The notes beneath the pieces are model-generated. The model did no database searches, had not been told where the DNA came from, and saw only the letters and a list, made by a program, of their open reading frames with translations. The position numbers and the translations under genes are program-made. DNA of 64,000 nt, taken from an uncultured Eubacterium sp. (lineage in GTDB: Bacteria > Bacillota > Clostridia > Lachnospirales > Lachnospiraceae). Positions within the stretch are counted from its first letter, which is position 1, and every line of letters begins with the position of its first letter. Location: positions 1-64,000 of the forward strand of contig CAMUML010000005.1 of the NCBI GenBank assembly GCA_947089855.1, written 5' to 3'. Below, piece by piece: positions 6,022 through 52,996 of this stretch.

Positions 6022-6050
6022 ATTTTAACATATGGCTTGTGATTGCTCAA
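6022..6050 (-). promoter_or_regulatory. Putative promoter for the phosphoesterase-rubrerythrin gene
   Basis: Minus strand: TTGAGC (6050-6045), 17-nt spacer, TAAAAT (6027-6022), about 80 nt upstream of the start codon. Confidence 0.5.
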
Positions 6051-6090
6051 GTAACATTACATGTAAAGAAATCGCAACGGGTTTTCAAAA

Positions 6091-6234
6091 GTTACTATTC
6101 ACGGGCCAGGAATGCGCATAAACTGCGCATTCCGTGAGAACATGATTCAGGAGTGAGGGGCGATTTTGCGAAGCAAACTTTCAATATCGCCCCGAATTGT
6201 TACTGTGAGCGGCCCCCAGGCCGTGAATAGTAAC
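6091..6234 (+). mobile_element. 144-bp MITE, copy 1 (GTTACTATTCACGG termini)
   Basis: Starts GTTACTATTCACGG and ends with its reverse complement (14-bp perfect terminal inverted repeats). It is flanked on both sides by the 8-bp direct repeat TTTCAAAA, the footprint of a transposition event. Inside are small palindromes such as ATGCGCATAAACTGCGCAT and GCGATTTTGCGAAGC, but no open frame. A second copy at 18064-18207 is the same length, reversed, and differs at two positions by my reading. Confidence 0.9.
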
Positions 6235-6242
6235 TTTCAAAA

Positions 6243-6344
6243 TATACTGCAGGCCGCCAGGATTTACAGTAATTTAACTAAGAAAGTGATTGGCTGGCGG
6301 CCCGCGGTCGGGTTATACTGTAAATTTAACTGGTGTGCAGTATA
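6243..6344 (+). repeat. 102-bp palindromic element, family B, single-unit copy
   Basis: Bounded by TATACTGC (6243-6250) and GCAGTATA (6337-6344). It carries the ordered blocks GGCCGCCAGGATTTACAGT, GGCTGGCGGCC, GTCGG, and CTGTAAATTTAAC. The reverse complement of 52755-52996 has the same blocks, with the inner unit triplicated. It begins 8 nt after the MITE at 6091-6234, right at that element's target duplication. Confidence 0.75.
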
Positions 6345-8717: not shown

Positions 8718-8835
8718 GTTACTATTCACGGGCAATGTCATTTACTTAAGAAATCCCTCACACAACCTGACCCAGAAAATGCCTAACCAGGAACGCTGTT
8801 AATTGTGGCCTCCCGGACGCCGGATGGGGGCCGCT
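8718..8835 (+). repeat. Truncated mosaic palindromic element (MITE end plus family C)
   Basis: Opens with GTTACTATTCACGG, the exact 14-bp MITE terminus, and passes directly into AATGTCATTTACTTAAG (8734-8750) and about 85 nt nearly identical to 44140-44225, including AACCAGGAACGCTG and GGCCTCCCGGACGCCGGATG. The right arm is lost: similarity stops near 8835, 100 nt before the Rpn nuclease gene. No matching right MITE end is seen. The whole 8599-8931 gap contains this element, the promoter at 8651 and no gene. Confidence 0.7.
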
Positions 8836-11953: not shown

Positions 11954-12050
11954 GTTACTACTCACGGCCTAATGTCATTTACTTAAGCGTAACCGTTCAA
12001 TTGTGGCCTCCCGGACGCCGGGTGAGGGGGCGTCCGGGAGGCCACAATGT
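11954..12050 (+). repeat. Mosaic palindromic element with strong hairpin between mutS and mutL
   Basis: Starts GTTACTACTCACGGCC (one change from the MITE terminus), continues AATGTCATTTACTTAAG (11971-11987, the family C left end), lacks the ~60-nt family C middle, and ends in a perfect 19-bp hairpin (12001-12019 with 12029-12047, 9-nt loop) built on GGCCTCCCGGACGCC. It directly abuts a family D element at 12051. The hairpin could end or process the mutS transcript. Confidence 0.7.
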
Positions 12051-17914: not shown

Positions 17915-18063
17915 TTTACTGCTCCGTAATTTTTAGGTTTTTATGGGGGAGGGACGCTGGATGGCGGGGCGGCTGCTGTTATATTTTATTATTATGTATG
18001 CTGCGTCTTTCGCTTTACTGCAAGTGAAAGGATAATTTCTTTTATGGATCTGGACACCCATAG
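17915..18063. other. Non-coding start of a 690-nt intergenic region
   Basis: The gap 17915-18606 separates the FAD enzyme gene from the BofC-like gene. The first 150 nt hold no open frame, only a G-rich stretch GACGCTGGATGGCGGGGCGG near 17951 that resembles loops of the GGACGC hairpins. The rest of the gap is occupied by two MITEs, an outer inverted repeat and a terminator-like hairpin, listed separately. Confidence 0.5.
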
Positions 18064-18207
18064 GTTACTATTCATGGCCTGGGGGCCGCTCACAGTAACA
18101 ATTCGGGGCGATATGGAAAGTTTGCTTCGCAAAATCGCCCCTCACTCCTGAATCATGTTCTCACGGAATGCGCAGTTTATGCGCATTCCTGGCCCGTGAA
18201 TAGTAAC
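18064..18207 (-). mobile_element. 144-bp MITE, copy 2 (reverse orientation)
   Basis: Reverse complement of the element at 6091-6234, exactly the same 144-bp length, with two substitutions by manual comparison (one inside, one in the terminal repeat, where CACGG became CATGG). It is flanked by the 7-bp direct repeat CCCATAG. No coding capacity. Confidence 0.9.
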
Positions 18208-18393
18208 CCCATAGCAACTATATCATATTTTTTGGTTTGTTTAAAGTGATGTATAAGAAATCATTCAATATTTTATTTTGCAAAACGCAATCATTAGTAA
18301 TCACTATGTTTGAAACGTTTCTGTAAAATTCAAAAAGGCGGATGGATTTCATTTCGGTTCCATACGCCTTTATTTGCTATTTTGATAGTAATA

Positions 18394-18518
18394 AGGAACT
18401 GTAAAGAAATAATCGTTACTATTCACAGCTAATTTTCTCTTGACAAACATTCTAAGTTATGAAGCTGTGAATAGTAACAAATAATCTAACTTTATCCGAT
18501 TATTTCTTTACAGTTCCT
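18394..18518. repeat. Inverted-repeat element interrupted by a MITE
   Basis: Perfect 21-bp arms at 18394-18414 and 18498-18518 (AGGAACTGTAAAGAAATAATC and its complement). Removing the 64-bp insertion and one copy of its 8-bp duplication restores a simple hairpin with an 11-nt loop. It shares the AGGAACTG arm start with hairpins at 807, 5965 and 47320. Confidence 0.8.
18415..18478 (+). mobile_element. 64-bp MITE nested in another inverted repeat
   Basis: Perfect 16-bp terminal inverted repeats GTTACTATTCACAGCT / AGCTGTGAATAGTAAC, flanked by the perfect 8-bp direct repeat AAATAATC. The first 12 bases match the 144-bp MITE ends, so both were probably moved by the same transposase. The core is A/T-rich and non-coding. 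Confidence 0.88.
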
Positions 18519-43673: not shown

Positions 43674-43712
43674 TTTGTTTCTTGGAAAAATTTAGGAATT
43701 AGGAAAATACTT

Positions 43713-43848
43713 GTAACAGTTCAGGTAGGTCTGCGCATTTACTGCGCTGAACGTATGAAAATGTAGTGGCTGCAGGTATCCAGCCCATCGCGAAGCGATT
43801 TTCAATGGCTGGATACGTAACAGTTCAATGGGTTATCTGAACTGTTAC
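43713..43848 (+). mobile_element. 136-bp MITE with GTAACAGTTCAG termini
   Basis: Terminal inverted repeats GTAACAGTTCAG / CTGAACTGTTAC (12 bp) and a perfect 8-bp target duplication AAATACTT on both sides. Inside are GTATCCAGCC with GGCTGGATAC (a stem with CGCGAAGCG loop) and an internal copy of the terminus GTAACAGTTCA near 43817. A subterminal CTGCGCATTTACTGCGC palindrome echoes the ATGCGCATAAACTGCGCAT of the 144-bp MITE. No coding capacity. Confidence 0.88.
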
Positions 43849-44124
43849 AAATACTTATTGATGGTTGCGGAGGGGACGCCGCAGGAGGGGGTATCACACA
43901 AATCAGGCTGTGATAAAGCATAACAAAAAAGCCGTCCATTGCATTATCGATGGGCCAAAGGATATGTTTTCAACCTGTTTCTATAATGCTATGTTACGGC
44001 GTTTTATATATTTTGTTATTAATCTTCAATTCCTGGTATTTATAAGCCACGTGGATTTATTAGCCCGGCATACCCATACATAGCCTCGCCCTGCTGCTGC
44101 TATTTTTGTTGCTATTTACGGCCC
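43849..44124. other. Non-coding spacer
   Basis: Between the MITE at 43713 and the palindromic element at 44125. A frame of 72 codons at 43865 lacks an RBS and resembles nothing known, so no gene is called. Together with the flanking elements this accounts for the 43534-44262 gap. Confidence 0.5.
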
Positions 44125-52754: not shown

Positions 52755-52996
52755 TATACTGCACGCCGGTTAAATTTACAGAATGCTCCGACTGCAGGCC
52801 GCAAGCCATATACTTTCCTGTCTGCGTCACTGTAAATTCTTGCGGCCTGCAGTATATCCGACTGCAGGCCGCAAGCCATATACTTTCTTGTCTGCGTCAC
52901 TGTAAATTCTTGCGGCCTGCAGTATATCCGACTGCAGGCCGCAAGCCATATACTTTCTTGTCTGCGTCACTGTAAATTCTTGCGGCCAGCAGTATA
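52755..52996 (-). repeat. Family B element with triplicated 70-bp unit
   Basis: Bounded by TATACTGC (52755-52762) and GCAGTATA (52989-52996), 242 bp. Three tandem 70-bp units start at CCGACTGCAGG (52788, 52858, 52928), each with the inverted pair CTGCAGGCCGCAAG / CTTGCGGCCTGCAG; the third ends GGCCAGCAG. The rest matches the 102-bp copy at 6243 in reverse. 242 = 102 + 2x70. This fills nearly all of the gap 52656-53006. Confidence 0.85.

Follow-up and report, generated by a model that had tools for sequence, protein, structure and literature searches.

ISDge4 of Deinococcus geothermalis, placed by its authors in the ISBst12 group, resembles the element reported here in its end pattern (GTnACTnnTCA) and in its 8-bp direct repeat, and has a single large transposase; unlike our element, it is autonomous, its ends (GTGACTACTCAGCA/GTAACTGCTCAGCA) are only partly alike, and the available portion of its description mentions no hairpin module (PMC12898284). 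MITECca01 of Cardinium is likewise derived from an insertion sequence (IS), is the most abundant mobile element of its genome (169 copies) and lies mostly between genes, but it belongs to the IS982 family, has an intact parent in the genome, and the accessible text about it does not mention "secondary structure" (PMC9769881). QMITE2 of Coxiella shares direct repeats of 7-9 bp, a core of 113-145 bp and a transcript that folds, but has terminal repeats of 23-29 bp and another host, and the excerpts at hand describe no core shared across genera (PMC10969869). The CIR repeats of Caulobacter and Brucella have two hairpin arms, a linker and a structure that is conserved between species; they differ in sequence, and the part of the review that tabulates them gives no terminal inverted repeats and an uncertain duplication (PMC2229807). 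Our element belongs to a structured superfamily. In the open-licence literature we found no IS66-type miniature inverted-repeat transposable element (MITE) with the interior module described below, which is weak evidence of novelty, and a search with the end sequence returned only three unrelated papers, on plants and a virus.

Copies of the element and related repeats in the window

We analysed a window of 64,000 nucleotides, the whole stretch of DNA studied here, from the genome assembly of an uncultured Eubacterium sp. (4.08 Mb in 101 contigs, 90% complete; hereafter the host genome). A sequence-only reading had proposed that the window holds two opposite copies of a 144-bp MITE. This was borne out: the copies are equal in length, lie on opposite strands at 6091-6234 and 18064-18207, and differ, as had been judged by eye, at two positions (position 93, A/C; position 133, G/A). 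The 14-bp terminal inverted repeats ascribed to both are exact in copy 1, but one end of copy 2 (GTTACTATTCATGG) carries one mismatch. The flanking direct repeats, TTTCAAAA (8 bp) at copy 1 and CCCATAG (7 bp) at copy 2, were confirmed, and the inner palindromes that had been noted proved to be real, with RNA folds 5.1 to 6.9 standard deviations below shuffles for both copies and both strands. The two copies comprise the following features:

6091-6234, plus strand: 144-bp MITE, copy 1
6083-6090, unstranded: left target-site duplication of copy 1, TTTCAAAA
6235-6242, unstranded: right target-site duplication of copy 1, TTTCAAAA
6091-6104, plus strand: left terminal inverted repeat of copy 1, GTTACTATTCACGG
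6221-6234, minus strand: right terminal inverted repeat of copy 1
6109-6133, plus strand: hairpin H1 of copy 1, with a 10-bp stem and a 5-nt loop
6134-6156, plus strand: conserved linker of copy 1, GTGAGAACATGATTCAGGAGTGA
6157-6193, plus strand: bulged hairpin H2 of copy 1, outer stem GGGGCGAT/ATCGCCCC
6199-6234, plus strand: terminal hairpin H3 of copy 1
18064-18207, minus strand: 144-bp MITE, copy 2
18057-18063, unstranded: left target-site duplication of copy 2, CCCATAG (7 bp)
18208-18214, unstranded: right target-site duplication of copy 2, CCCATAG (7 bp)

H2 of copy 1 contains the inner hairpin TTTGC-GAA-GCAAA and the 3' bulge CTTTCAAT, and H3 is formed by the right terminal repeat paired with its own imperfect inverted copy further inside. 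The only open reading frames (ORFs) that overlap the 144 bp of copy 1 are five of 25-59 aa. The repeat is thus a MITE by its shortness without a transposase gene, its inverted ends, its target duplications, its dispersed copies and the ends that it has in common with an IS66-type element (L122, see below).

Related elements and ends were also detected in the window. Apart from the duplication in the third line, which belongs to the element above it, the entries below had been missed by the sequence-only reading:

18415-18478, unstranded: 64-bp element with ends GTTACTATTCACAG and 8-bp duplication AAATAATC
43713-43848, plus strand: divergent relative with ends GTAACAGTTCAG/CTGAACTGTTAC
43705-43712 and 43849-43856: 8-bp duplication AAATACTT flanking the 43713-43848 element
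8718-8731, plus strand: single terminal repeat, followed by GGCAATGTCATTTACTTAAG
11954-11967, plus strand: single terminal repeat with one mismatch, continuing similarly to 8718
44108-44121, plus strand: single terminal repeat with two mismatches, continuing similarly to 8718

The ends of the 64-bp element are nearly those of the 144-bp MITE and its interior has no strong fold (no z-score below 0), while the element at 43713-43848 keeps the H1-linker-H2 plan with different stems. No partner within three mismatches was found near the end at 8718. The single ends at 8718, 11954 and 44108, together with L050:2447-2712 and L053:2705-2970, represent a repeat with AATGTCATTTACTTAAG-like inner inverted repeats that is often joined to one GTTACTATTCACGG end; together with part of the 144-bp MITE it makes up mosaics of 266 bp that have 8-bp duplications of their own. 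Copy 1 is adjoined by a palindromic repeat of about 101 bp (window 6244-6344), of which more copies occur in L005, L058, L048, L010 and at window 52755-52855. Finally, a relative of the module in the host genome lies around position 585 of L066 (minus strand), with the H2 stem TGAATCCAGCCC and the left end GTTACAGTTCAGCCC.

Copy number, insertion sites and distribution

The prediction of many copies with the same ends was confirmed. The host genome contains at least 40 matches that cover 138 or more of the 144 bases at 96-100% identity, a lower bound given that 40 of 219 candidates at first look were scored; one of them lies inside a 266-bp mosaic, and a short fragment was found in addition. 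The 14-bp end at no more than one mismatch occurs 179 times forward and 163 times in reverse (342 occurrences; 83 and 93 exact ones on the two strands), whereas the same 14-mer pattern read backwards occurs 1 + 2 = 3 times, which excludes chance for the terminal 14-mer. From 68 fetched stretches of the host genome and the window we collected 51 distinct elements of 140-147 bp, a set that stands for these stretches and not for the whole genome and that includes nested and partly damaged copies. Their mean identity was 97.4% to the consensus and 95.5% pairwise. Contigs C7, C11, C15 and C26 start or stop within about 100 bases of an end sequence (among the first 100 places), as expected if repeats with these ends, perhaps with a missing autonomous element among them, broke the assembly.

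Target duplications were present at 43 of the 51 copies: 35 were perfect 8-bp repeats, 6 were 8-bp repeats with one mismatch, one was of 9 bp and one of 7 bp, the latter being that of window copy 2. The other eight copies had no recognisable duplication, and some of these sit in or beside other copies. When flank pairs were shuffled between copies, an 8-bp match at no more than one mismatch arose in 164 of 10,200 trials. The perfect 8-bp duplications across all length classes (43 sequences) showed at most a mild A/T lean.

Empty sites, which the sequence-only reading had also predicted, were recovered for 3 of 53 joined flank pairs (every length class having a duplication), which matched uninterrupted repeats elsewhere in the host genome. 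The copy at C12:14997 interrupts the repeat of about 101 bp, which is whole at several other places including window 6244-6344; that at C5:118853 interrupts a repeat found whole in L244 and L054; and a 160-bp element at C3:33416 interrupts a repeat whose uninterrupted form occurs in L252, L005 and L051 at 73-86% identity. Three other candidates were not counted, as C43:30661 had only a 36-base inverted match within its own locus and C54:21994 and C13:7231 were self matches. The gene pair around copy 2 is adjacent without the element in the nine same-genus genomes where both genes were placed. We compared the element with up to 1.5 kb of the argS side of copy 1 in 12 genomes and obtained no match; in L215 this region carries two end-like sites, each with three mismatches, and L212 has a degenerate linker and an H2-like piece elsewhere in the locus. 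Since the query genes are 65-78% identical across species of the genus, these comparisons show absence of the element and not a base-perfect empty site.

Matches to the element were found in 11 of 61 genomes, nine of them in the same genus (both counts with the host genome) and two in other genera of the host's family, taken to be the Lachnospiraceae, where the matches were short. An identical 144-bp element was present in L142, labelled uncultured Hungatella sp. The exact 14-bp end occurred in 35 of 397 genomes and 32 of 334 genera of the family, with most occurrences in the host genome. Searching with a 16-bp end only, we obtained at least 113 stretches; among the 80 listed, 44 were labelled Lachnospiraceae and the others mostly other Clostridia, with single labels such as Bacteroidales, Bacilli and Chitinophagaceae. 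The plasmid and phage collections gave no match to the element. The exact 16-mer was found in five stretches of viral contigs (L256-L260): L258 has two ends 192 bp apart, L260 matches the covariance model described below, and L256 and L259 have one end each near the contig start. The fifth, L257, lies inside a 2784-aa open frame, looks like chance and was rejected as an element.

Candidate parents in the IS66 family

The sequence-only reading had expected to see the same termini on a full-length element that encodes a DDE transposase. Such an element was found in L122, with the same ends and an IS66-type transposase, but it comes from another genus and has no clear 8-bp target duplication at its flanks. 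L122 belongs to a goat omasum metagenome-assembled genome labelled Oscillospiraceae and was fetched by the end sequence alone. Its element measures 2453 bp between matching ends and encodes a 585-aa protein that scores 53.7 bits against the Pfam IS66 transposase domain PF03050 (cut-off 23.1) and 172.2 bits against the NCBIfam IS66 model, just below the cut-off of 180; an additional small ORF matched no family.

Among genomes of the same genus, G004 contains IS66-type loci with GTAACTGTTCAG/GTAACTATTCAG ends. We scanned 25 loci for duplications (L122 and 24 others) and found perfect 8-bp ones at seven, all in G004. The end pattern of the same-genus IS66 elements with 8-bp duplications is GTnACTnTTCA. 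The one G004 protein tested scored 272.6 against the NCBIfam cut-off of 180, and a 481-aa ORF is the only one of at least 300 aa in the G004 element, smaller ORFs falling outside that look. The element of G005 is 2314 bp long, and its GTTACTTTTCACACCC ends are also those of 160-bp MITEs in the host genome; its protein scored 43.0 bits with Pfam IS66 and 120.5 with NCBIfam IS66, under the cut-off of 180, and its flanks share AACAGGA (7 bp, by eye). In G002, of the same genus, a piece of 412 bp has GTTACTATTCACG-type ends, is flanked by TTCAAAAG at either side and includes a C-terminal transposase remnant that is 60% identical to L122. The host assembly, 90% complete, yielded no intact IS66 transposase with these ends; it contains remnants only, including C21:27567, and the IS66 piece on C3 has none of the four end types at two or fewer mismatches (2.5 kb, L254). 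Based on the elements of L122, G004, G005 and G002 and on the ends of ISDge4, the parent very probably belongs to the IS66 family and, within it, to an ISBst12-like part, a name given for the resemblance of the ends to those of ISDge4.

It is therefore very likely that the 144-bp repeat is a MITE with IS66-type mobilisation. A transposase would recognise the GTTACTATTCACGG ends and insert the element by an 8-bp staggered cut, and the ends and duplications suggest that this movement occurs in trans. If another transposase moved the copies and the ends were alike by chance, the host assembly could well be without an intact IS66 element and L122 without a clear duplication, as we observed; 8-bp duplications occur in other IS families too. 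Three MITE end types, though, each have a like-ended IS66-type element, namely GTTACTATTCACGG (L122), GTTACTTTTCACACCC (G005) and GTAACTGTTCAGCAC (G004), and we consider a different transposase improbable. It is hardly credible that the copies are REP/RAYT-like or other hairpin-moved repeats without duplications: they are indeed small, mostly intergenic and hairpin-rich, but REP/RAYT repeats are moved by a Y1 enzyme and make no target duplication, whereas the present copies have terminal inverted repeats and duplications at 43 of the 51 sites.

A larger unit of 3528 bp was observed at L273:567-4094 (G215), with GTTACTATTCAC ends and the perfect 8-bp duplication CTCGCAAC. It contains PdxT-, PdxS- and GntR/aminotransferase-type genes and no transposase among its ORFs of at least 90 aa, and its left end is 81% identical over 184 bp to DNA beside an IS66-type transposase gene in G018. 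The vitamin B6 genes are thus the cargo of a unit for which movement in trans is probable. Mobile insertion cassettes carry genes, unlike the 144-bp MITE, which carries none. According to the available part of their description they are transposase-less units moved in trans (PMC3281130), as the MITE probably is, and they resemble this pdx unit.

The interior module and its possible role

The interior of the element is a conserved module composed of H1, a linker, a bulged H2 with a GNA loop and the terminal H3, and it is real as a pattern. The element can be aligned along its full length with relatives from other species. Across 22 aligned sequences, two of them from the window, the pairing of H1, H2 and H3 was kept in 98.9% of cells. 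Both sides of a pair had changed at 4 pairs and in 10 cells; shuffles gave 1.5 and 1.9, and a slid-partner control no more than 2 pairs and 3 cells. Further pair types (15) fell below the shuffled mean of 16.5, that is, in the opposite direction. Alignments A3 and A4 are fitted to the model and were left out of the pair counts.

With a covariance model we obtained 58 matches from one set of 100 sources and 34 from a second set of 58, L260-L262 being in both. Stems that differ entirely, combined with other ends, were seen in many matches (e.g. L040, L091, L271, L107 and window 43713-43848); L040 has GTAACTGTTCAGCAC ends and the duplication AAAAGGAG. Applied to a sample of 200 genomes from 199 genera of the family, the model, in which the ends are included, matched 25 genomes of 24 genera, often at several places in each. 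Inspection of 28 loci from this search identified, by our criteria, 11 full elements with linker, ends and duplication (5 perfect, 6 with one mismatch; L299 is the weakest), 11 linker-like stretches without clear ends, among which L314 and L318 (7 mismatches) are likely chance, and 6 loci with no linker within 7 mismatches. The model locus L322 has ends and a duplication, but a different interior. At no more than 6 mismatches of 22, the linker was confirmed in 18 genomes of 17 genera, the host genome counted.

The linker (consensus GTAAGAAnRTGATTCAGGnGTG) is among the most constant parts, together with the position of H1 directly before it and, in H2, the inner hairpin with its three-base loop and a T-rich...AAT bulge on the 3' side. 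We recovered 126 distinct linker sites at no more than 5 mismatches in the fetched loci, viral loci set apart, of which 106 had H1 (loops of 3-8, stems of 6-12, counted from 8), 101 had H2 and 91 had both. As a chance control, the linker pattern was searched in viral contigs, where 20 stretches gave 13 distinct sites, none with H1 and none with H2. A strict H1 geometry with a stem of 10 and a loop of 5 was abandoned, as it fitted only 47 of 81 distinct sites, chance viral hits included. The H1 arms comprise 22 different 8-nt sequences, of which about ten are clearly distinct from GGAATGCG and the others differ from it only slightly; the H2 stems comprise 13 different 7-nt strings, several being near-variants of one stem. 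The H2 loop is GNA in 91 of 101 modules (GAA 63, GGA 17, GCA 6, GTA 5) and in 47 of the 51 host copies. A scan demanding no loop or bulge sequence yielded equal numbers of distinct modules in real and in reversed sequence (42 each), and one stem recurs in many of those from real sequence; the GNA loop was present in 27 vs 1 of them, the bulge motif in 31 vs 1, and both in 26 vs 0. An earlier scan that demanded the GNA loop and the bulge was left out of the evidence. These module counts are not a random sample, as many loci were fetched by ends, similarity or the covariance model; the search by the 16-bp end only supplied a part of them free of selection for the module.

Folding of 17 chosen elements, some of them members of the superfamily, with 16 bases trimmed per end gave z-scores of -1.9 to -14 for 16 interiors; an interior rich in hairpins is a frequent feature of elements with these ends. 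Searches of autonomous elements did not turn up the module, and the idea that it is one end of an autonomous element was rejected. We also considered whether the linker contains a GANTC methylation site like that of CIR repeats, and discarded the idea because the fourth base of GATTC varies among relatives (GATNC).

Among the 51 host copies, 10 of 46 positions in the H1 and H2 stems were variable, against 27 of 48 at other interior positions (Fisher p = 0.0007), and substitutions numbered 22 in stems vs 100 at the other interior positions. Singletons differed less (9 vs 17), and H3 varied at 17 of 22 counted positions. Stem pair changes within the host genome were kept as wobble in 21 cases, broken in 15 and compensated in one. 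The counts for stems, other positions and singletons fit a constraint on the copies that multiply and not on each copy after landing, in a single genome whose shared variants are non-independent. By plain ORFs of at least 100 aa, 44 of the 51 copies could be placed in a gene context: 22 tandem, 13 divergent, 2 convergent and 7 inside such an ORF. The tandem copies are unbiased, 11 lying along and 11 against the direction of the genes. Copy 1 (6091-6234) has no promoter or terminator match inside, and no Rfam 15 family reached its gathering score over the window or E ≤ 1 over 6050-6280. A function as terminator or promoter was set aside for the lack of a match inside copy 1 and of an orientation bias.

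The H1-linker-H2-H3 module is probably kept by selection on its folded single-strand shape. Our tentative reading, held at less than even confidence, is that the fold promotes amplification at the level of DNA; hairpins in single-stranded DNA could, for instance, bring the ends of the 144-bp molecule together, or bind a host factor or the transposase. We lean to it because the copies show no orientation bias, no promoter match was found and the loop belongs to a type that forms very stable structures in DNA, GNA triloops being described as very stable DNA minihairpins in the portion of the source available (PMC6479982, citing Yoshizawa 1997). Against a need at this level, our searches of autonomous elements did not reveal the module, so that a requirement by the transposase would be puzzling.

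The hairpins may instead be a by-product, palindromes kept perfect by replication template switching with no selection on shape, which is possible if somewhat doubtful. Template-switch correction changes the two arms together and would thereby look like covariation; hairpins also abound in other MITEs that have these ends and different interiors, and H3 holds an inverted copy of the terminal repeat. Such a process is not expected to preserve a bulge on one side only (TTTnAAT type), the GNA loop seen in 91 of 101 modules, or a linker that stays unpaired while the stems differ. An arrangement in which the stems vary around a linker that is conserved, as is the one-sided bulge, is found in structured RNAs, and would suit an interior that acts as a functional RNA, either a structured transcript or a cis-acting one, selected for its fold. 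The strong folds agree with this, as do MITE transcripts reported to fold in the accessible text of PMC10969869. It nonetheless appears rather unlikely in view of the missing Rfam match, the lack of a promoter or terminator match inside 6091-6234, the even split of tandem copies with and against genes, and the stability of GNA triloops in DNA (PMC6479982, as far as available), with which an RNA is still compatible. Returning to selection on the folded strand, a bolder and distinctly speculative version, which we think unlikely, would see here a family-wide lineage of structured selfish nucleic acids, in which H1-linker-H2 is the unit under selection, travels with several end types across genera (two of them matched to IS66) and acts as a strand-specific signal in single-stranded DNA (or RNA) that makes short elements better IS66 substrates than their parents.

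For annotation and assembly, it is relevant that some 340 end sequences and several contig ends of this genome are repeats. MITEs are often seen as deletion leftovers of a parent element; here the interior was not found in the parents searched, and the fold is common to MITEs with different ends. If the fold helps movement, it could explain, in a way open to testing, why some MITEs are more numerous than their parents, and it would provide a means to study IS66 transposition, a process that the available part of the ISDge4 report calls insufficiently characterised (PMC12898284).
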